Shown piece by piece: positions 37,466 through 60,074 of a stretch of DNA of 61,561 bases; the first letter of the stretch is position 1, and each line of letters starts with the position of its first letter. The stretch is from Nitrospira sp. (GTDB taxonomy: Bacteria; Nitrospirota; Nitrospiria; Nitrospirales; UBA8639). The notes under the pieces are model-generated. The model ran no database searches and was not told where the DNA came from. It saw nothing but the letters and a program-made list of their open reading frames with translations. The stretch spans positions 1 to 61,561 of the forward strand of contig JAPPLK010000024.1 in NCBI GenBank assembly GCA_028819435.1, given 5' to 3'. The translations under genes were made by a program, and so were the position numbers.

Positions 37466-37524
37466 TCGTCGGCGGATGTGAGAGCCTTGTCTTGGATATG
37501 CCCGAACTCAAAGGAGAGCACCTG

Positions 37525-38451
37525 ATGAGACGATGTCGATTCCTCGTGGCAATGGGCTTTGTACTGGTTCTAAGCGGCTGCGGCGGGAGCGGCTTTCTGC
37601 CAATGATGGGGGAGCCGCTTGACCTGGAGACGGCACGGTCTGAACGGAGTGCGGTCGGGGCGGTGCGCAATTCGTTGCTGGTCAGTGATCTCGTGTTCGC
37701 GCCCGGCAACAGCCAGGGAGAACGCATCCGTGGCCACACGTCCTGTGGCCGGACAACGTGCCGGTCCACCATATTAGGTCAGCCGTATCTCCGGATCAGC
37801 TTGGGCACCAGCGCCGAAGCCGAGGGTTCAGGGTTCTTCGCCGGGGAGCCGATAGTCAGTGCGCTGGAACGCTACCGGGGCGTGGCCCTGGGCGCGTTTT
37901 TCCGCACGGACAGGCTGCGGACGGAGCACGTGGAAGTGGACACGGATATACTGTCGTATGAAGGCTGGATGCAGTACAGTTCGTTTGGCGCGGAACTCAA
38001 TACCATCACGCATGGGATCATCAGCTATGGGGACTTTCAGCGGGTGCTGACCGGGGAGCGGTATGGTTTGGCCAGTTCCTCCGGGATGGCGACGGGCACC
38101 AATCCGGTCGACGGCAGCGCCACCTGGACGGGAGTCGTGATAGGCGGGAGAATCAGTCATGATGCCCTAGTCGGAATAGGCGTGCGGGGCCATGCCACGC
38201 TCACCTATGATTTCATGAATGAGAACATCGACGTGTTCCTCACCAACGTCCAAAATAGCCAGCCCGAGGTAGATGGACGGCAGATCTATCCGAATATGAC
38301 GTGGCAGAACTTGCCGGTCAGGGATGGCCGGTTCGGGGCGGACTTCGATGCCCCCGATCTCGAAGGCCGGTTTTATGGTCCCAACCATGAAGAAGTCGGC
38401 GGTATCTTTGAACGCAACCAGATCATCGGAGCCTTCGGCGCGAAGCGCTAG
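37525..38451 (+). CDS. TbpB-like surface lipoprotein (short form)
   Basis: The 308-residue precursor has a lipoprotein signal ([18 protein letters not shown], lipobox LSGC). The ATG at 37525 has AAGGAG nine bases upstream; a start at 37492 would add 11 residues and spoil the signal. The C-terminal ~120 residues form a beta-rich domain ending [26 protein letters not shown], the ending typical of transferrin-binding-protein-B-like (TbpB_B_D) barrels. Such lipoproteins are moved to the cell surface by Slam. A Slam gene lies at 56787. The ligand is unknown. The next gene, a CbbQ-like ATPase, follows after a repeat. Confidence 0.8.
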
Positions 38452-39328: not shown

Positions 39329-39385
39329 TGAGCCTGCCATAGTGCTTACATGGAGGTGAGGGAACGAGTTCCCTCTCAATATCAA

Positions 39386-40426
39386 ATGATCAGGTCACTC
39401 GATATAGAAAACTTCCGCTGCTTTGCCAGTGTCCGCGCGGGCAATATCCGCCGCTTTACCATTGTTACTGGCGAGAATGGGAGTGGGAAGACAGCTCTTT
39501 TGGAAGCGCTCTTCGTTTCCGGGGGCGGGAGTCAAGAAATATGCCTCCGAGCAGGAGCGTGGCGTGGGAATGAATTAATAATTGCAAATACTCTGTCTTC
39601 TGCTAGCTCAGTATTTGAAGATTTATTCCATAAATTTAATGTAGGAGCTGGACTCAAGATATCATTTGAGGATACCCGCAAAAATAGACGAGAGGTACAG
39701 GTCATTGCAGATGATGAAGTGGTAAATATTCCAGTTAACTCTAAATTGTCGGAATCCTCTCTTTTATCGACGGGGTTAAGATTTTTTTGGAAGACACCAG
39801 ATGGAGATTTTGAACCACAAATTGAAGTGACACCTAAAGAAATACGCGTATCGAAAGTTGTTAATCCCTATCCAATGATTATGCTCAATCAACTCACTTT
39901 TCAATCTCCTATAGAGAATGCACAACGGTATTCAGACCTGTCGACGAAAAACCAAGAAAAGACTGTTATTGAAACCCTTCAAGGATTATTCCCGCAGGTC
40001 GAGGATTTAAGCATTCAGGTAAAGGGAAATTCCCCTACACTTTTTGCCAAAGTTAAAGGCGTTGATCGCAAAATGCCACTGGGGTTGGTTTCGGCAGGAA
40101 TCCATAAATTCTTGGCAATTCTTTTGGCTATTACCTCTACTCCTCGTGGGGCGGTTCTTATTGATGAAGTCGAAAACGGGTTATATTACAAACTCCTGAC
40201 TCCCATGTGGGAAATGCTTATGAAGCACTGTATAGAGAATAAGTGCCAATTGATTGTGACAACCCACAGTAAGGAATTTTTGGATTCCCTTGCCCCGCTT
40301 ATTGCTTGCAATGAACAAGATTTCAGTTTGCTGCGAACCGAATGGAAGAACGGTGAAGCAACTATATCGAGCTTTAGCGGAAAAGAATTCGCGGCAGCGC
40401 TTAAGAATGGATTTGAAGTTCGATAG
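39386..40426 (+). CDS. ABC/OLD-type AAA ATPase of a two-gene defence-like module
   Basis: From MIRSLDIENFRCF the 346-residue protein is a RecF/SMC-like ATPase. Walker A is GENGSGKT (residues 29-36), and Walker B is AVLIDEVENGLYY, followed by the H-loop TTHSKEF. It has no long coiled coil. An alternative start at 39350 adds 12 residues; neither has a good ribosome site, and homology favours 39386. The gene is visibly richer in A/T than its neighbours, a sign of transfer. It touches a DUF3226 gene, a layout like PARIS, AbiL or OLD-nuclease pairs. Role inferred: phage sensor or effector-controlling ATPase. Confidence 0.82.
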   Translation: MIRSLDIENFRCFASVRAGNIRRFTIVTGENGSGKTALLEALFVSGGGSQEICLRAGAWRGNELIIANTLSSASSVFEDLFHKFNVGAGLKISFEDTRKNRREVQVIADDEVVNIPVNSKLSESSLLSTGLRFFWKTPDGDFEPQIEVTPKEIRVSKVVNPYPMIMLNQLTFQSPIENAQRYSDLSTKNQEKTVIETLQGLFPQVEDLSIQVKGNSPTLFAKVKGVDRKMPLGLVSAGIHKFLAILLAITSTPRGAVLIDEVENGLYYKLLTPMWEMLMKHCIENKCQLIVTTHSKEFLDSLAPLIACNEQDFSLLRTEWKNGEATISSFSGKEFAAALKNGFEVR

Positions 40427-41106
40427 TGACCATGGATAGATTCGACAAGGAGAATAGGAGTGAATTGACAAAACCGAATTTGGTTATCTGTGAAGGAAAG
40501 GGCGATGCGGCGTTTTTTCGACACGTCCTTGATGCGAATGAGATTTCAGGTTTTCAGGTAGGATTTCCGAACGGTGAAACGGCAGGCGGAAAGTTTGGTT
40601 CTACTGGATTTGGGAAATACCTTGAGGGGCTCAAGGTAAGGAGTGGATATAAAACATTAAAGCATATTGTCATTGCAAGAGATTCTGATATAGACCCCTC
40701 AAAGTCTTTTGATGAAGTATGCGATCAAATACAGAATGCCGGTGGATACGAGGTCCCGGATAAACCGCTTGCCCGCACCGAAGGCAAAGATCCGACTCTG
40801 TCGGTATTGCTAGTGCCTCATAGCGAAAAACCTGGCAATCTTGAAACACTATTTCTTGATGCGATGACTTTAGACGAGCAAGATAAGGATTGCTTTGAGA
40901 CATACTTTGAGTGCTTGAAATTAGACGCATTCGAAATAACGGTATCATCGAAGAAAAAGTTGACAACCATAATTGCCGCCAAAAATGACAAAAACCCAAG
41001 TTGTAGCTTAGCCTACATCTGGAGTACAGAGCAGAAGAAATACAACCCAATCAACATAAAACATTCAATGATATCCAACATCGTTAAATTTCTTCAATCA
41101 TTCTGA
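40426..41106 (+). CDS. DUF3226 (TOPRIM-like) partner of the ABC ATPase
   Basis: The 226-residue protein has the DUF3226 signature, related to TOPRIM/OLD nucleases: NLVICEGKGDAAFFRHVLD with the catalytic-type Glu near residue 23, and HIVIARDSDIDPSKSF supplying the acidic DxD. GNLETLFLDAM closes the core. The GTG overlaps the ATPase stop (TAGTG); an ATG at 40432 is also possible. It is A/T-rich like its partner. By analogy with AriB or OLD nucleases it may cut nucleic acid once released by the ATPase. That is inference from family and pairing. Confidence 0.8.
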   Translation: MTMDRFDKENRSELTKPNLVICEGKGDAAFFRHVLDANEISGFQVGFPNGETAGGKFGSTGFGKYLEGLKVRSGYKTLKHIVIARDSDIDPSKSFDEVCDQIQNAGGYEVPDKPLARTEGKDPTLSVLLVPHSEKPGNLETLFLDAMTLDEQDKDCFETYFECLKLDAFEITVSSKKKLTTIIAAKNDKNPSCSLAYIWSTEQKKYNPINIKHSMISNIVKFLQSF

Positions 41107-46352: not shown

Positions 46353-48797
46353 ATGAAGAATCAACGGGCTCATTCCAAGAAAGCAATAGAGTATTGCTGG
46401 AAACACGGAATAAAGTTGCTCGCGCTCTTGCCGTTGGCAATCGCGTTGGGTGTGGGGGAAACTGCCGCGCAGGGCGACGCCGGCACGCCGCAAAGCCTCA
46501 GCGTCTCCGACATCCATCAATTGGAAGAAGTCGTGGTCACGGCCACCCGGCGGGTTGAAACGGTCATGGACGTGCCCTTCTCCGTCAACGTGCAGGAAGA
46601 AAGCGACATCCAGCGCCTGAATACCTTCAACCTCGAAACCCTCTCCCGGAACGTCGCCGGCCTGAACGTCCAGAACCTGGGGCCCGGCCAGAGCGTCGTG
46701 AACATCCGCGGCATTTCATCCGGCCAGATCGTGCGCGACCAGCCCGGCGTCAAGGAGCAGGTGGGCGTCTACCTGGACGACGTGCCGATTGCGATCTCGC
46801 TGTTCACCCCGGACCTGGACCTCTATGACGTCCGGCGCGTGGAAACCCTGCGGGGCCCGCAAGGCACGCTGTTCGGCTCCGGGTCCATCGGCGGCACCGT
46901 GCGGTACGTCACCAACAAGCCCCAACTTGGCGTCAAGGACGTCAGGACGCAATTCGACCTCAACACCATCGACGGCGGCTCGTCAGGCGGGCACGTCAAG
47001 GCGGCCTTCAACGCGCCCCTGGGCGACAACGCGGCCGTGCGCGTGGTGGGTTACGGCACCCGATACGGCGGGTTCATCGACGCCCTGCAGGTCACGGGCG
47101 AAAGGGACGACAACGTCAACGACGGCGGTCGCTTCGGCGGTCGCGCGTCCGTGTTGTGGCAACCCACCGCGAACGTCACCATCACCCCCAGGCTGGTGTA
47201 CCAGAGCATCGACGTGGACGGGTTCAACCGCGACGAGATCTTCAACCTGTTCGCCAACCCGTATTCCACCACGCGACCCCGCGTGCAGCTTGGCAAACGC
47301 CAACAATTCCTGCTGCGGGAAGAAGCCTTTGAAGACGAAACGATGCTGCTCGACAATACCGTCAAATGGAACCCGAACGACCGCATCGAGGCGACCTACG
47401 TCACCAGCTATACCAAGCGCGACCTGCTGGTGAGCCGGGACTCCAGCGCGCTGGCGGGCAGTGTAGCGGTCGATATCGGATTTCCGCCGGAAGGCGTGCT
47501 CATCCCGTCCAACCTGCGGGACACCACTGAGTTGGAGCAGATGACCCATGAGGTGCGGGTCGCTTCCACCGACAACAGTCCGTTCCAATGGCAGGCGGGC
47601 GTCTTTTACTCCAACATCAAACGCGACTATTCCCAGCGTTTGCCCATGCCGGGGTGGGACCGGACCCATACAAATGCCGGAAGCCCGCTCGGGGCGTTGG
47701 AGGATTCCAGTAATGGCTTCAATACCATGGATTCGCCGTACGTATCGGATTTGACCTACGACCTCAGCCAGGTTGCCGTCTTCGGCGAAGCCACCTATAC
47801 ACTCTTCGACCGCCTCGGCCTGACCGCCGGGTTGCGCTGGTACGACTGGGAGGAAGACAAGACCTTCAGGTCGGGCGGGGTCTTCTCCAATGCGGCGGCG
47901 CAAAACCAGGCCGTCACCGTGTCCTCCAACGGGTTCACGCCCCGGTTCATGATCAAATATGACGTGACCGACCGCGTAGCCGTCAACGCCCAGGCGTCAC
48001 GCGGATTCCGGCTGGGCGGCGTGAACGACCCGTTGAATGCGCCGTTGTGCGGGGCTGACTATGACACCTACCGTGGCTACCAGCGGTTCAAGGACGAGAC
48101 CCTGTGGAACTATGAAGTCGGCCTCAAGTCCTCCTACGAAAAAGTGACCATGAATGCCTCGCTGTTCTACGCCGACATCGACAACCTGGGCGTGAACGTG
48201 GATGCCGGTGAATGTTCATCGCGGGTGACCGTCAGCGTGCCCGAAGCCCACACCATGGGCGGAGAACTGGAGTTCGCCGTGCATCCCACGGATGCCCTGC
48301 TGGTGACGTTTGCCGGCAGCTACGTGGAGGCGGAATTCGATTCCACGGTCCCCAACGTGCCCGGCATCAAGGACGGCAATCGCATCCCCTCCGTGCCCAA
48401 CTGGCAACTCTCCGCTGTGGCGACGTACACGTTCCCGGGCCTGTTCCAGTCCAAGGAAAGTTACGTCACGGCCTCCTGGCAGTACGTCGGCAATCAGTTC
48501 ACCCAACCCGGCGACCAGGAAAGCACGAGTTACCCGTCCAGGCTCATAACGGGTCTGACGGGAGCGGATATGGCTTCGGACAATTTTCGGGACCAGATGG
48601 AACTGGACGCGTACCACCTGCTCAACCTGAACACGGGGCTGCTGTACGACACGTGGGAAGTCATGCTCTACGTCAAGAACATTGCAGACGAAAACCCGCA
48701 ACTCTCCTTCGACCGGGAACGCAACGGCGCAGCCCGGATGGCCTATCGCGTGGGCCAACCCCGCACGTTCGGCATCCTCACCCGCTTCTACTTTTAG
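46353..48797 (+). CDS. TonB-dependent outer membrane receptor
   Basis: The 814-residue receptor has a signal peptide (LLALLPLAIALGVGETAAQ), a TonB-box-like LEEVVVTATRR, the plug domain (VQNLGPGQSVVNIRGISSG, VYLDDVPI, VETLRGPQGTLFGSGSIGGTVRYVTNKP) and a 22-strand barrel. The barrel ends in MAYRVGQPRTFGILTRFYF with the C-terminal aromatic needed for BAM assembly. GGGAGG lies seven bases before the ATG. It takes up a siderophore, cobalamin or another large ligand with TonB energy; the substrate is unknown. No tonB/exbBD lies nearby, and no TbpB-like lipoprotein is adjacent. Confidence 0.93.
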   Translation: MKNQRAHSKKAIEYCWKHGIKLLALLPLAIALGVGETAAQGDAGTPQSLSVSDIHQLEEVVVTATRRVETVMDVPFSVNVQEESDIQRLNTFNLETLSRNVAGLNVQNLGPGQSVVNIRGISSGQIVRDQPGVKEQVGVYLDDVPIAISLFTPDLDLYDVRRVETLRGPQGTLFGSGSIGGTVRYVTNKPQLGVKDVRTQFDLNTIDGGSSGGHVKAAFNAPLGDNAAVRVVGYGTRYGGFIDALQVTGERDDNVNDGGRFGGRASVLWQPTANVTITPRLVYQSIDVDGFNRDEIFNLFANPYSTTRPRVQLGKRQQFLLREEAFEDETMLLDNTVKWNPNDRIEATYVTSYTKRDLLVSRDSSALAGSVAVDIGFPPEGVLIPSNLRDTTELEQMTHEVRVASTDNSPFQWQAGVFYSNIKRDYSQRLPMPGWDRTHTNAGSPLGALEDSSNGFNTMDSPYVSDLTYDLSQVAVFGEATYTLFDRLGLTAGLRWYDWEEDKTFRSGGVFSNAAAQNQAVTVSSNGFTPRFMIKYDVTDRVAVNAQASRGFRLGGVNDPLNAPLCGADYDTYRGYQRFKDETLWNYEVGLKSSYEKVTMNASLFYADIDNLGVNVDAGECSSRVTVSVPEAHTMGGELEFAVHPTDALLVTFAGSYVEAEFDSTVPNVPGIKDGNRIPSVPNWQLSAVATYTFPGLFQSKESYVTASWQYVGNQFTQPGDQESTSYPSRLITGLTGADMASDNFRDQMELDAYHLLNLNTGLLYDTWEVMLYVKNIADENPQLSFDRERNGAARMAYRVGQPRTFGILTRFYF

Positions 48798-54481: not shown

Positions 54482-54790
54482 ACATAGTCCTTCTAAAAGG
54501 TTACGGATACGGTTGTGGTTATGGGAACAGAGTCCATCTTAGGCCAACAGAACCGAGAAGAACAAGCGACAACATGCAGAATGCCGACTATTAGTAATCG
54601 AGTATCCAGCGGTTTTACTTTTTCTCCCTCGCCCCCTGGGTAAAAAACAATCATTGTCAACGATTCCGGATAATTCCCGAAACCACCCCACCCCACCAAG
54701 CAAACCGGGCCTCCTTTTTTTGGAACACGCATGCCAAAACAGTCCCCATGCGTAGAACAACCAAAAAAGAAATAATAAAAAAAGAAAGAC
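54482..54790. other. A/T-rich gap without a recognised gene
   Basis: Open frames here on the minus strand are phenylalanine-rich runs from homopolymer tracts and do not look coding. No repeat of the dispersed families was seen. The right part leads into the promoters of the surface lipoprotein gene. Confidence 0.4.
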
Positions 54791-54797
54791 AAAAGGC

Positions 54798-54826
54798 TTG
54801 ACACATTCATCCGTCATTCGTACAAT
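54798..54826 (+). promoter_or_regulatory. Promoter P1 TTGACA-17-TACAAT
   Basis: A perfect -35 and a near-perfect -10 with 17-bp spacing, about 205 bp upstream of the surface lipoprotein ATG. Confidence 0.7.
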
Positions 54827-54931
54827 CCGACCCAACTATTTGGTTTCGTAGTTGTCCACCTCTTTCCAATCTTCAATTTAGCCGGATTCAACTTTAGCTC
54901 TTCAATTAAGGAGATTTACAGAGAGGAAGGC

Positions 54932-54960
54932 TTGACTTACCCACCCGCCGAAAGTAGAAT
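54932..54960 (+). promoter_or_regulatory. Promoter P2 TTGACT-17-TAGAAT
   Basis: A second promoter with 17-bp spacing, 70 bp before the ATG. Both promoters share a GGCTTGAC context and each is followed by a TCAATTAA(A)GGAGAT segment (about 54901 and 55009), as if the leader had been duplicated. Confidence 0.65.
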
Positions 54961-55030
54961 CGTGCGAAACACGTGAACAGAATACTTGACCTACTCTCTA
55001 TAACTTATCAATTAAAGGAGATAAGACAAC

Positions 55031-56689
55031 ATGGACATGAAACGATTCTTCTTGTATGCAATCGTAATCGTTGCCTTGGCGTTGGCCGGGTGTGGAAGCG
55101 ACGGCAATGGCGGGATGACAGCTATGCCGGATCCTGATCCAACTCCAACGCCTGACCCGTGTCCAACGGGCCAGACAAGGAATGCGGATGGTGATTGTGA
55201 GGCACCACAACCGGCACGCATGCCCCCACCCATGGAGTTGGTCGAGGGCATCGTGACCGCGAATAACGATGATTTTAGCGCCGTGAATCCGGCGCCGTAT
55301 AGTCATGAGGATCGGCCTGGTAAGCTAGTAGAGAATGGTAGTCCCACAGGTGATGTGCTCGAAATAGGGGTGAAGATTGACGGGACTATCGGTGATGTCA
55401 ATATTGGTACAGACGATGGCGATGCCACCTCCGCCCTAACCAACCTGAGAGAATTGACGAAGTCCGATGACATGATGCCGCCGTCCGTTGGGTCGTTTGC
55501 CGACGGAAGCGTGCATAGCCGCACGAACATGGGTGTGACTGACACCGCGTATGTGTATGAAACGAGAGACGCGCCAGGAGGGCGGGCTTGGGATATGCTG
55601 TACCCAACAGCGGAAGAGGATAGTACAACAAATTCCGAACTAACAGGCACAGACGCTTTTGCCGGCATTGCCGAGCCTGATTCGACGCCGGCCGGCAACC
55701 AAGGTTTTAACGTCATCACATTTGGCTCTAGTGTGGATGCCATTGGGATGAGGTTTGAGTCCGACATGTTCCCGTCGTCGTCGTCACAAACCTATACGTA
55801 TCATACAAATAGTGAATACGATAGGATGCCCGCAACTGGTGAGGGTGCCAGGGGGGTATCGGATGTGCGCGGGCAAATGATTGATGGGATGTTTCATGGC
55901 ATCCCTGGCACATATACCTGTGCCGATGGGGGCACGCCCGGCACCTGCACGGTCCTCACGGATAATAGAGGCCAAGTTATGACGTTGGGGGGCACATGGA
56001 CTTTTAGGCCGGACAATCTGGCAACCGGCGTGACGGGGCATATGGTCCAGGGCGTGGTGGATGATACCGACTATCTGACATTTGGATATTGGGTGCAGAA
56101 AGACGAGAGCGACGACTTGGAGATCGGCGTGAGCACATTTGCCTCTGGTGAGGCATTGGATACTCCTTATATCACGGCTATGTTAAATTTGGTAGGCCAT
56201 GCTGACTATGATGGCAAAGCCGTCGGCAAGTTCGTCAAGAAGACCCTGTCGCCTGCTGGCGTGTCCACGATCACAGATGGCGGCACGTTTACTGCTGATG
56301 CGAGCCTAAAGGCTTATTTCGGTGGCAATGACATTTCCTTCAATGACAGATTTACCATCAGTGGGACTATTAATGGGTTCCGGAATTCGGATGGGGATAC
56401 AATTGACGATAATTGGTCTGTCACGTTAGAAAAGGCAGATTTTACGACAAATCCTGGTTCTGTTCCTGGTACCAACAAGACCACGACACAAGATACCTTC
56501 ATGGGCTTGACCTCAGCTGGCGGTCCGTCTGGAACATGGGGAGGCTCATTCTATGGCGACTCTCCGGCTACTGCTGATTTGCCCACGGCCACTGAAAATC
56601 AGAAGGCTTACCCGTCCAGCGTCGCGGGCGAGTTTGATGCCCACTTCACGAACGGGCATGCGTTGGGTGCCTTCGGGGCTGAGCGCTAA
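55031..56689 (+). CDS. TbpB-like Slam-dependent surface lipoprotein
   Basis: The 552-residue precursor has a lipoprotein signal (MKRFFLYAIVIVALALAGC, Cys21) and a flexible anchor (GSDGNGGMTAMPDPDPTPTPDP) typical of surface lipoproteins. The rest is beta-rich, with two barrel-like regions. The last strands read VAGEFDAHFTNGHALGAFGAER, the ending of TbpB-type barrels; the ~308-residue protein at 37525 ends the same way. AAAGGAGA precedes the ATG, and two promoters lie upstream. It is followed by a terminator hairpin and a Slam gene, so it is the likely cargo of that translocator. The ligand is unknown. Confidence 0.82.
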   Translation: MDMKRFFLYAIVIVALALAGCGSDGNGGMTAMPDPDPTPTPDPCPTGQTRNADGDCEAPQPARMPPPMELVEGIVTANNDDFSAVNPAPYSHEDRPGKLVENGSPTGDVLEIGVKIDGTIGDVNIGTDDGDATSALTNLRELTKSDDMMPPSVGSFADGSVHSRTNMGVTDTAYVYETRDAPGGRAWDMLYPTAEEDSTTNSELTGTDAFAGIAEPDSTPAGNQGFNVITFGSSVDAIGMRFESDMFPSSSSQTYTYHTNSEYDRMPATGEGARGVSDVRGQMIDGMFHGIPGTYTCADGGTPGTCTVLTDNRGQVMTLGGTWTFRPDNLATGVTGHMVQGVVDDTDYLTFGYWVQKDESDDLEIGVSTFASGEALDTPYITAMLNLVGHADYDGKAVGKFVKKTLSPAGVSTITDGGTFTADASLKAYFGGNDISFNDRFTISGTINGFRNSDGDTIDDNWSVTLEKADFTTNPGSVPGTNKTTTQDTFMGLTSAGGPSGTWGGSFYGDSPATADLPTATENQKAYPSSVAGEFDAHFTNGHALGAFGAER

Positions 56690-56741
56690 GTTAAGAGGTT
56701 GTTAGATGTCCGTGTAACAGGTTGTAATTTCTCAGTGAGAT

Positions 56742-56777
56742 AAAAGAAGGGCAGCCAGTTGGCTGCCCTTCTTTTTT
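56742..56777. terminator. Strong intrinsic terminator between lipoprotein and Slam genes
   Basis: AAAAGAAGGGCAGCC and GGCTGCCCTTCTTTT form a perfect 15-bp stem with a four-base AGTT loop, followed by a T-run. It ends only ten bases before the Slam ATG, so Slam must be made by read-through or from an unseen start. Confidence 0.85.
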
Positions 56778-56786
56778 GCCATCACC

Positions 56787-58373
56787 ATGCTACAAGCTCT
56801 GTATGTGCTTATCGTAGTTCTCCTGTTCCATACACCGTCGGCTTTGGCCGAGTCCGGTGATGCCGCAGATGGTGGGTCTCAATCGGCCCCCCTCACCCAA
56901 GCCCTCTCCCTCCAGGGGAGAGGGAGTCCTGAGGTGCCGCCCGAAGCCTGCCGGGACTGCGGATTGCGCTATTATCCGCCCTCTGCCCCCTCACCCCAAC
57001 CCTCTCCCTCCAAGGGAGAGGGAGAACAGGAGAGGAGAGGGAGTGTTGAGCAGGGGAGAGGGAGTTCTGGGGATCCATTCGTAGATGGCGGATCTCACCT
57101 CTCCTCCGATACGCGGGTCAATACCGCGCGGGTGCTGCTCGAAAGCCAACGCTATGCCGAAGCTCTGCAGATCCTTGGCCCCCTGATTCCAGATCATCCG
57201 GACCAGACGGACGTGCGGTTTCTCATCGGCTTGACCTCGAGCCGGTGGTCTCAGGATCCCCAACTGAGTGACGAGCAGCGGCTCGCGCTCTTGGACCAAT
57301 CCATCGGTGCGTTCCGGTCGATCCTGATCCACCGGCCGGAACTGGTGCGCGTGCGCTTGGAACTGGCCCTGGCCTTCTATTTGAAGCAGGATGACCAGTT
57401 GGCGCAGGAGCATTTTGAGCGGGTTCTGGTGGGTCGCCCACCCGCGAACCTGGTTGCCAACGTCAACCGGTTTCTGAACGTCATGCGTGGCAGGCGTCGC
57501 TGGCGCGGGTATTTCGGCTTCTCCCTGGCCCCGGACACGAACATCAATGCCGCGTCGGACGCGGAGTTCATTTACATCAACGGCCTGCCGTTCCGCCGAG
57601 GTGCGCAGGGACGCGCCAGTTCCGATATCGGCGTGGTGGGCTGGGGTGGCGGCGAATACCAATTCCCCTTGGCCGACCGCTGGCGCCTGCGCTCGGGGTT
57701 CGATCTCAACCACCGGGAATATAAAGGGAAGCAGTTCGACCAGACGTACGCCGGGGTCTATGCAGGGCCGCGCTGGCTGTTCAGCCGCACTACCGAAATG
57801 AGCCTGCTGGCCACAGTCAGCCAGCGCTGGTTCGGTCAATACAGCTTCAACTATGATTACGGCGCGCGCCTGGAAGTCGAGCACAGGATCTTCGCTGGCC
57901 TGCGGCTAAGCGGCCGGGCCTTGTGGAGCGATCGTAAATATCAGCAGCAGAAGTTCCTCGAAGGCCCACTCATGGTCTTCTCCCTGGCTGCGTCCTATGT
58001 TCCCTTCCCGATCGTTGGGGTCAACGCGCTGGTCGGCTATCAGGAACAGGATGCCTTATCTCACCAGTGGAACAATGCCGGGTACTGGACGCGAATAGGG
58101 GCGAACGTGGCGTTGCCGTGGGGCTTTAGCATGGGCCTCAGCGCCGAGTTCCGGTGGACGGATTACGAAGGCAGTTGGTTCCCTTTCACCACCGATGGCT
58201 CCACCCGCGAGGACCAGACCCGCATCCTGGGGGCCACGCTGCTGAACCGTGCGATTACCGTGTTCGGGTTCAGCCCGCAGGTCGCGTTTTCCAACCAACT
58301 GCGCACGTCCAACGCGCAACTGTTCGACTTCCAACGCAACCTCGTGGAAATGCGCTGGGTCCGCCAGTTTTAG
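56787..58373 (+). CDS. Slam (surface lipoprotein assembly modifier, DUF560) outer membrane protein
   Basis: The 528-residue protein has a signal peptide (LYVLIVVLLFHTPSALAE). Residues ~34-99 are encoded by two or more in-frame palindromic repeats ([25 protein letters not shown]). A TPR-type periplasmic domain follows (~105-205, LLESQRYAEALQILGPLIPDHPDQ). The DUF560 barrel begins RRRWRGYFGFSLAPDTNINAASD and ends with the aromatic MRWVRQF. Slam proteins move TbpB-like lipoproteins across the outer membrane (type XI secretion). The TbpB-like gene directly upstream supports this. No ribosome site is seen, only the preceding terminator. Confidence 0.85.
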   Translation: MLQALYVLIVVLLFHTPSALAESGDAADGGSQSAPLTQALSLQGRGSPEVPPEACRDCGLRYYPPSAPSPQPSPSKGEGEQERRGSVEQGRGSSGDPFVDGGSHLSSDTRVNTARVLLESQRYAEALQILGPLIPDHPDQTDVRFLIGLTSSRWSQDPQLSDEQRLALLDQSIGAFRSILIHRPELVRVRLELALAFYLKQDDQLAQEHFERVLVGRPPANLVANVNRFLNVMRGRRRWRGYFGFSLAPDTNINAASDAEFIYINGLPFRRGAQGRASSDIGVVGWGGGEYQFPLADRWRLRSGFDLNHREYKGKQFDQTYAGVYAGPRWLFSRTTEMSLLATVSQRWFGQYSFNYDYGARLEVEHRIFAGLRLSGRALWSDRKYQQQKFLEGPLMVFSLAASYVPFPIVGVNALVGYQEQDALSHQWNNAGYWTRIGANVALPWGFSMGLSAEFRWTDYEGSWFPFTTDGSTREDQTRILGATLLNRAITVFGFSPQVAFSNQLRTSNAQLFDFQRNLVEMRWVRQF

Positions 58374-58625: not shown

Positions 58626-58994
58626 GTGGTCGCAGACGTCCTGAAGCCTGTCGAATGGGTTGGTTCAAACAAAGCGGACCTGAAGGCATTCCCGGCCGCC
58701 GTACAGGACCAAGTCGGCTTCGCTCTGTATCAGGCGCAGGTGGGACTCAAGCACCGCGATGTCAAACCACTCAAGGGCTTTGGCGCTAAGGTCTTGGAGG
58801 TCGTCTCACGTCGAGAGGGCGATACCTACCGAACGGTGTACACCGTTCGGTTCAAGGCCGCCATCTATGTCCTGCACGCCTTCCAAAAGAAGGCCAAACA
58901 GGGGATCGCGACCCCGACGTCGGAGCTCGACCTCGTCAGACGCAGACTGAAGGCTGCACAAGAGCACTACGCCGACACCTATGGTGAAAGGTAG
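58626..58994 (+). CDS. RelE/HigB-type toxin (phage Gp49-like)
   Basis: A 122-residue toxin of the Gp49/HigB-like branch: PVEWVGSNKADLKAFPAAVQDQVGFALYQAQ, VKPLKGFGAKVLEVVSRREGDTYRTVYTV, and IYVLHAFQKKAKQGIATP are the diagnostic segments. Such toxins cut mRNA on the ribosome. The start is GTG; no ATG fits. It is followed four bases later by a helix-turn-helix antitoxin, the toxin-first order of HigBA systems. Confidence 0.85.
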   Translation: MVADVLKPVEWVGSNKADLKAFPAAVQDQVGFALYQAQVGLKHRDVKPLKGFGAKVLEVVSRREGDTYRTVYTVRFKAAIYVLHAFQKKAKQGIATPTSELDLVRRRLKAAQEHYADTYGER

Positions 58995-58998
58995 AGCC

Positions 58999-59325
58999 AT
59001 GAAGACGGACAAAATGAAAATCGAACGTGGCAGCGGTAACGTGTTTGCGGATCTGGGTCACCCGGATGCCGAGGCGCACTTGTTGAAGGCGAAACTCGTC
59101 ACTCGCATTGATGCGATCATCCGTCAGCGTGGCCTCACCCAGGTGGCGGCGGCGAAGCTGCTCGGCCTGTCCCAGCCGGATGTGTCGCGCCTTCTGCGGG
59201 GAAATTTTCGAGAGTTTTCCGTAGAACGCCTGCTGCGCCTGTTGATGGCGCTCGGCCGCGACGTAGAAATCGTCATTCGGGCCCCGCGCCGGACGCGTCA
59301 GGGTAAGCTCCTGGTCGAAGTGTAA
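58999..59325 (+). CDS. XRE-type HigA-like antitoxin
   Basis: A 108-residue antitoxin from ATG 58999. The helix-turn-helix is RIDAIIRQRGLTQVAAAKLLGLSQPDVSRLLRG, and FREFSVERLLRLLMALGRDVEIVI is the family tail. It neutralises the toxin encoded just upstream and probably represses the pair. A start at 58981 would overlap the toxin gene and adds nothing conserved. Confidence 0.88.
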   Translation: MKTDKMKIERGSGNVFADLGHPDAEAHLLKAKLVTRIDAIIRQRGLTQVAAAKLLGLSQPDVSRLLRGNFREFSVERLLRLLMALGRDVEIVIRAPRRTRQGKLLVEV

Positions 59326-59505: not shown

Positions 59506-59592
59506 AAAGAAATGCGTAGGGATGTAGAGTCTTGACAAACACCTGCAGGCATGAATAATGAAGGCGAAACGAACGGTTCTACGGAGGAAGTC

Positions 59593-59802
59593 ATGAGTAC
59601 AAAGAACTCTGTCAGAAAACCCACCGTGAGAAAGCGCGGCGCAGTTGAAGACAACGCGAAGCCCTCTCGTTTCGTGGATGCCCCCGAAGATGTTATTGAT
59701 TCCGAAATCGCCGCAACGCGGTTACGCGAAATCAATGAAGGTCCCGAGAATCTTATTTCGGGAGAGAAGTTGACTGCCGCCCTTGACCGCCTCGTTAAGT
59801 GA
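59593..59802 (+). CDS. RelB-like antitoxin
   Basis: A 69-residue protein with a basic N terminus (STKNSVRKPTVRKRGAV) and an acidic C-terminal helix (SEIAATRLREINEGPENLISGEKLTAALDRLV). GGAGG lies six bases before the ATG at 59593; an upstream ATG at 59551 is less likely. It overlaps the toxin start by four bases (GTGA). The family is inferred from context and the RELISGEEL-like ending. Confidence 0.75.
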   Translation: MSTKNSVRKPTVRKRGAVEDNAKPSRFVDAPEDVIDSEIAATRLREINEGPENLISGEKLTAALDRLVK

Positions 59803-60074
59803 AGCGGTACATTTACGCGTATACGAAGGCGTCGCTTGATGCCCTCGCTGCTATGCCGAAAGATGTGCGCAGGCAGATCAAGCGTAAGATTGATGGCTTA
59901 GCAGAGGGTTCCACCAGACAAGGCATCAAACTCCGGGGCGTGCTGGACGGGACTCATCACGTTTATCGAATACGGTCTGGGCATTATCGCATTCTCTATT
60001 CCATCCGCGACGATTCCAAAATCATCGTTCTTGACATCGGGCATCGGCGTGATATCTACCGCCGGCTGAATTGA
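59799..60074 (+). CDS. RelE/ParE-type toxin
   Basis: A 91-residue GTG-started toxin of the RelE superfamily: IYAYTKASLDALAAMPKDVRRQIKRKIDGLAEG, then KLRGVLDGTHHVYRIRSGHYRILYSIRDDSKIIVLDIGHRRDIYRRL. The conserved basic YRIRSGHYRILY strand and the terminal GHRRDIYR are diagnostic. It would act as an mRNA interferase or gyrase poison. It is coupled to the antitoxin by the overlap. Confidence 0.9.
   Translation: MKRYIYAYTKASLDALAAMPKDVRRQIKRKIDGLAEGSTRQGIKLRGVLDGTHHVYRIRSGHYRILYSIRDDSKIIVLDIGHRRDIYRRLN

Follow-up and report, generated by a model that had tools for sequence, protein, structure and literature searches.

How does a nitrite-oxidising bacterium come to carry what appears to be a surface-lipoprotein export module of a kind described from the Proteobacteria? 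The question is raised by positions 55031–58373 of a 61,561-nt stretch of Nitrospira sp. (assembly GCA_028819435.1, contig JAPPLK010000024.1; "the window" below means this whole stretch), where an open reading frame (ORF) for a lipoprotein is followed after 97 bp, on the same (+) strand, by an ORF for a Slam, each with an ATG start. A first-pass annotation, made from the sequence alone, had claimed such a pair; both ORFs lie where it placed them, and their identities are borne out by PF04575 and by the fold of the lipoprotein. We consider it highly probable that the pair is a Slam-type (type XI) secretion module of Candidatus (Ca.) Nitrosymbion, with a Slam that serves as a shared export hub and belongs to a mostly sponge-associated, horizontally spread clade, and with N-terminal cargo domains that are likely to face the sponge or its microbes. 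The features concerned are the following.

55031–56689, + strand: predicted Slam-dependent surface lipoprotein (the cargo), 552 amino acids (aa); ORF, lipobox LAGC, C-terminal 8-strand barrel, structural matches to factor H binding protein (fHbp), hemophilin and TbpB, relatives that immediately precede Slam in many genomes
55031–55093, + strand: signal peptide and lipobox, with Cys21 as the predicted lipidation site, from the sequence; residues 1–21 are identical in the genome's own second cargo (L042)
55094–56050, + strand: variable N-terminal region, residues 22–340, from the identities in A2 (an alignment of 28 cargo relatives) and a low-confidence model
56186–56686, + strand: C-terminal 8-strand barrel, residues 386–552, presumed Slam-recognition domain; predicted local distance difference test (pLDDT) ~95, hhalign 96.8%
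56742–56777, + strand: intrinsic-terminator hairpin in the gap between cargo and Slam, from RNA folding
56787–58373, + strand: Slam, outer-membrane translocon of the type XI secretion system (T11SS), 528 aa; PF04575, TPR_Slam, C-terminal Phe, model with TPR and ~14 strands
56890–57010, + strand: two palindromic repeat copies (exact matches at 56890–56912 and 56988–57010), translated as the variable linker of Slam between signal peptide and TPR
57111–57491, + strand: TPR region of Slam, residues 109–235, from model helices, TPR Pfam matches and TPR structures
57498–58364, + strand: outer-membrane beta-barrel of Slam, residues 238–526, from the PF04575 match and 14-strand porin matches; first strands of low confidence
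37492–38451, + strand: second candidate cargo, without an adjacent Slam and with an uncertain start codon; PF01298 at 1e-8, above cut-off, and NCBIfam slam_lipo NF041636 at 2.4e-6, below cut-off

The downstream gene is a Slam, a T11SS outer-membrane protein. Its product matches PF04575 (SlipAM) at 6e-24 (85.5 bits against a cut-off of 22, residues 239–523), a family with zero matches in 14 control genomes, and it matches TPR_Slam at 1.5e-5, below that profile's cut-off of 35.2 bits, together with several other TPR families of Pfam. A TPR domain followed by a 14-strand barrel had been anticipated: in the AlphaFold model (mean pLDDT 60) the TPR helices are present at residues 109–235, and the barrel, at 238–526, counts about 14 strands, the first of them poorly modelled. 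OmpG and CymA, both 14-strand porins, match this barrel best among PDB structures (Z 17–18), and the TPR region aligns with TPR structures at Z 14–15; the Slam profile run against PDB sequences retrieved only TPR and TamA noise. The last residue is Phe. The linker that precedes the TPR region differs in length among relatives and here holds two copies, read as protein, of a palindromic repeat found throughout the genome (172 copies, as against 1 for the reversed control). This repeat, CCCTCACCCNARCCCTCTCCC, resembles repetitive extragenic palindromic elements and has 8 matches in the window, those in the linker being exact.

The upstream product does not itself reach PF01298 above cut-off and, because it has no match of its own to that family, was assigned by fold and context. 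It carries a signal peptide with lipobox, MDMKRFFLYAIVIVALALAGC, taken directly from the sequence (LAGC at residues 18–21), and ends in GEFDAHFTNGHALGAFGAER. Against PDB sequences phmmer gave no match, and the cargo profile matched only lipoprotein leaders and coiled coils; neither was informative, and a fold comparison was therefore needed. The AlphaFold model, based on A2, forms the C-terminal 167 residues into 8 strands (390–551, pLDDT ~95); the N-terminal half is poorly resolved, with strands from about residue 159. When this barrel is compared with PDB chains, only known Slam cargos occupy the top 50 (on re-alignment, Z 11.7–15.2): fHbp at 15.2, hemophilin/HphA at 13.8, the TbpB C-lobe at 13.3, NHBA at 12.6 and LbpB at 11.7. 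Foldseek concurs, with TbpB and HpuA at ~1e-4. Among the A2 relatives, 4 of 28 match PF01298, and profile–profile comparison (hhalign) of the cargo family with PF01298-type cargos scores 96.8% (E 2e-10) over the barrel; the proposed PF01298 assignment fails for the single sequence. Given the relatives' matches, the profile–profile score and a fold list made up of Slam cargos only, the TbpB-type C terminus that had been claimed is real and not a chance resemblance; by its modelled fold, the product of 55031–56689 is a TbpB-fold lipoprotein cargo.

The genome carries two Slams and roughly 14 candidate cargos (about 9 found by A2, 5 by PF01298), and because of this ratio a Slam would act in each cell as a shared export hub. 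The largest of the cargos that were scanned for adhesion domains reach 1594 aa; the scan returned only PF01298 and low-complexity or coiled-coil matches. Much of this is familiar from Slam1 of Neisseria meningitidis with TbpB and fHbp, which likewise combines a TPR plus PF04575 translocon, lipobox cargos with a C-terminal 8-strand barrel, and few translocons with several cargos. Unlike that system, the present one has a Nitrospirota host, a cargo invisible to PF01298, no TonB receptor partner and a terminator hairpin between the genes. Hemophilin, HphA and HrpC, with their Slam, share the handle and 8-strand barrel (Z ~13–14), whereas the window cargo is predicted to be lipidated and is without linked TonB or haem genes. 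The second candidate cargo of the window matches both PF01298 and NF041636, the latter below cut-off, unlike the main cargo family A2, which is largely invisible to PF01298 and matched by profile–profile comparison only. The strongest gammaproteobacterial PF04575 match (L127) is 18% identical to the window Slam. The "Cluster 3" T11SS of Rhodobacteraceae/Roseobacteraceae also belongs to marine bacteria, but it rarely has a TbpB-type barrel cargo and has DUF1194 genes instead (PMC12282271), whereas in the present group a barrel cargo usually lies beside the Slam.

By analogy with these systems, the lipoprotein would be exported by Sec, lipidated at Cys21 and brought to the outer membrane, where the adjacent Slam would recognise its C-terminal 8-strand barrel and thread it onto the cell surface; the diverging N-terminal domains would then most likely be turned towards the sponge or other microbes in it. 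In Slam-mediated translocation the chaperone Skp holds the cargo beforehand, and neither ATP nor proton motive force is required (PMC9090332).

The two genes are separated by a hairpin with a 15-bp stem, a 4-nt loop and a U-run. The terminator scan did not pick it up; RNA folding did (positions 56735–56785, minimum free energy -29.7 kcal/mol, z -6.2), and in 13 of 16 further loci, from several phyla, the gap between the two genes holds a comparable hairpin. Such a terminator would probably allow much cargo and little Slam to be made. The cargos also diverge far faster than Slam and its flanks. At the syntenic locus of the related genome G202 the flanking DNA is 86–92% identical and Slam 77.5%; the upstream region and signal peptide of the cargo still match in DNA there, its body does not, and the matching segment (54760–55113) is kept at the DNA level in several loci of the genus. 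Among the cargos of the genus the barrels are 36–44% identical and the N-terminal regions 19–29%. In the tree the G202 Slam is sister to the second Slam copy of the window's own genome, on contig C22, and not to the syntenic window Slam, a grouping that suggests recombination between Slam copies.

The first-pass annotation had seen hints of Nitrospirota and of a nitrifier, and both hold. Genome G1081, of the same genus as the window's own genome, equals G296 in the coordinates and scores of its Slam matches, and G296 (the genome of locus L064) is MPMZ01, "Nitrospira sp. bin75", which gave its name to the GTDB genus bin75. This genus corresponds to Ca. Nitrosymbion, whose members oxidise nitrite and live mainly in sponges (PMC11812461). 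The window runs collinear to both the closed Nitrospirales chromosome OY282373 and G202 (the latter at 86–92% DNA identity) and is thus no stray contig. Slam is present in 10 of the 14 genomes of the genus and the cargo profile in 13, or perhaps 12, the matches in G245 being leader-like only; G1082 has neither detected. In 35 genomes from other genera of the same family neither gene is convincingly present, which makes Ca. Nitrosymbion the only genus of the family with Slam and cargo.

The machinery itself is of known kind; the surprise is that sponge symbionts of different phyla share it. Named species genomes were scanned and gave 64 loci, and in the Slam tree 56 Slams fall into one clade (support 100/100, stem 0.60) that has ordinary proteobacterial Slams as its neighbours; compared with the window Slam, identity drops from 37% within the clade to 30% outside. 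Its members come from Nitrospirota, Cyanobacteriota (Ca. Synechococcus spongiarum), Tectomicrobia, Binatota and Pseudomonadota. The earlier suggestion that the system extends to a nitrifier lineage was therefore right but understated, the window Slam being one branch of a multi-phylum clade drawn mostly from sponge-symbiont genomes. Of the 53 Slams of the clade that the scan yielded, 30 have an A2-profile cargo within 1.7 kb upstream on the same strand, and in about 10 more the upstream side is cut by contig ends. Because the phyla alternate with one another in the tree, transfer between them is the simplest reading, the count of changes being unable to separate gain from loss; judged from the tree, the clade has probably spread horizontally.

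Around the clade Slams, broadly only Slam and cargo recur; what else clusters is for the most part antisense shadow ORFs, synteny at genus level or, at six loci, a subtilase (Peptidase_S8) ORF within several kb (for example L074:10727–13459), which could release or process surface cargo. In the cyanobacterial loci L098 (7299–7925) and L115 (7314–8003) Slam is followed by a DUF1036 protein whose start overlaps the Slam stop codon, and six cyanobacterial loci have a related ORF. The Slam of Cyanobacteria MAG CAR3_bin_5, a metagenome-assembled genome (MAG), is divided over two overlapping ORFs (L112:5695–7277) and is on that account frameshifted or misassembled.

A sponge source is confirmed or named for the jk18x bins, which are from Ircinia (PMC9531527), for Ca. 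Synechococcus spongiarum and for Nitrosymbion (PMC11812461). For others it can be deduced from names: the p16x bins resemble the jk18x set, the RHO, COS and CAR bins fit sponge species of PMC8163846, and 277c resembles a Petrosia specimen code of PMC6506613. With a source confirmed or deduced for part of the records, the clade is best called mostly, and not exclusively, sponge-associated, where the source can be checked or deduced at all. A Slam shared across phyla in sponges, cyanobacteria included, points to a host-association trait that is passed around.

Several observations weigh against our interpretation. The set with a confirmed or deduced sponge source leaves aside the OX/OY chromosomes, the SB066x bins, MEX2-MAG12, CO36405 and the window's own genome, and Ca. 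Nitrosymbion itself counts among its MAGs one from coral and two from cold seeps (PMC11812461). The scan was seeded with Nitrospirota Slams, and related Slams from outside sponges may be under-sampled. About 13 clade Slams with room upstream have no A2-type cargo there, the window cargo taken alone has no Pfam or NCBIfam match, and two genomes of the genus, G199 and G229, have a cargo without a detected Slam.

Among the rival explanations the likeliest, although we think it improbable, is an ordinary Slam with a nutrient-binding cargo (for iron, haem or another metal), gained once by the genus, the sponge pattern being a sequencing bias among marine genomes. Hemophores and transferrin receptors are among the known cargos of Slam, hemophilin and HpuA appear among the fold matches here, and a TonB-dependent receptor (46353–48797, 814 aa) lies ~6 kb upstream of the module; it is the nearest in the window and is shared only with the syntenic neighbour G202. 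The seeding of the scan also favours near relatives. However, no TonB-dependent receptor recurs around the clade Slams, and Slam with its cargo is all that broadly recurs across phyla, which leaves the metal or haem ligand that had been proposed unsupported. Sampling bias likewise fits poorly with the absence of Slam from other genera of the same Nitrospirota family and with the occurrence of PF04575 in just 1 of 339 sampled cyanobacterial genomes, that of the sponge symbiont. Since no TonB receptor recurs nearby, we hold with modest confidence that a host- or microbe-facing surface role is likelier than TbpB-type nutrient uptake.

It is less probable still that the TbpB-fold lipoprotein stays in the periplasm, or is displayed without the help of Slam, and that the barrel next to it has some other export task. 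The Slam-less G199 and G229 would fit this, as would the many cargos of the window's own genome that are not adjacent to a Slam; the discordance in these two genomes could be either an assembly gap or a sign that cargo is not strictly dependent on this Slam. Yet in several phyla Slam repeatedly has the cargo gene immediately before it, outside the genus the cargo family is absent where Slam is absent, and cargo unlinked to Slam is normal in Neisseria.

There is very little to recommend a PgaA-like or other TPR-barrel exporter caught by PF04575: that family does include some PgaA homologues (PMC8406197), and weak matches (E 1e-4 to 1e-10) are common in other Nitrospirota, Gammaproteobacteria and Binatia of the phylum sample and were excluded from the Slam counts, but the window protein matches over its full length at 6e-24 with TPR_Slam at 1.5e-5, has 14-strand porins as its best barrel matches and a TbpB-like cargo next to it, and the groups nearest to the clade are proteobacterial Slams, some with adjacent cargo (L116, L118, L121). 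We give as little credence to a binning artefact behind the contig or the cross-phylum pattern. Nearly all of the genomes are MAGs, and the clade members from Acidobacteriota (Bryobacterales) and Chloroflexota sit on short contigs; Chloroflexi, moreover, mostly lack an outer membrane. These cases are possible misbins, are doubtful and are not relied on. On the other hand, clade Slams stand on closed chromosomes of Nitrospirota, Gammaproteobacteria, Binatia and Entotheonella, and a binning error does not explain the window, whose locus is also present in closed Nitrospirales chromosomes and whose surroundings are collinear with OY282373 and G202. The cyanobacterial Slams come from five assemblies, several with common neighbouring genes, and form one subclade (100/100); pcrA, guaA, miaB, ddl and ftsZ share one contig with such a Slam, and NCBIfam yielded no lineage-specific marker among the cyanobacterial contig neighbours. 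For Nitrospirota, Cyanobacteriota, Binatota and Tectomicrobia an artefact is thus largely refuted.

Elsewhere in the window, a HigB/HigA-like toxin–antitoxin pair (Gp49, HTH_37; 58626–59325) lies directly downstream of Slam, followed by a ParE-type toxin (59799–60074) whose preceding small ORF (59551–59802) is a possible antitoxin. An AAA ATPase (AAA_21/AAA_15) and then a DUF3226 protein (39350–41106) occupy a local GC dip of 0.43, reminiscent of a defence island.

T11SS has been placed in "the phylum Proteobacteria" (PMC8406197) or said to be one that "predominantly occurs" there (PMC12282271). The open-access T11SS papers, to which our search was confined (subscription papers and preprints fell outside it), do not mention Nitrospirota; a 2025 survey of T11SS cargo mentions neither sponges nor cyanobacteria, and we found no open-access literature joining Slam with sponge. 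With a coherent T11SS clade in Nitrospirota, Cyanobacteriota, Binatota and Tectomicrobia, the system reaches beyond this proteobacterial description. A bolder view, on which our judgement is evenly balanced, is that a sponge-symbiont T11SS lineage has moved by horizontal transfer through five or more phyla with an outer membrane, Cyanobacteria among them, and puts fast-diversifying lipoproteins on the cell surface for recognition by, or persistence in, the sponge: a shared symbiosis trait comparable to the host-interaction proteins that animal pathogens display through Slam. A fast-changing cargo with a stable translocon is the pattern expected of a host- or phage-facing surface protein. In a survey of ~1200 sponge MAGs few lineages encoded known secretion systems (PMC8163846), and research on sponge symbiosis would here gain a specific surface-display machine common to unrelated symbionts. 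The cargos are small enough to be expressed and tried for binding to sponge tissue, and the recognition or tolerance of microbes by one animal host would thereby become directly testable.

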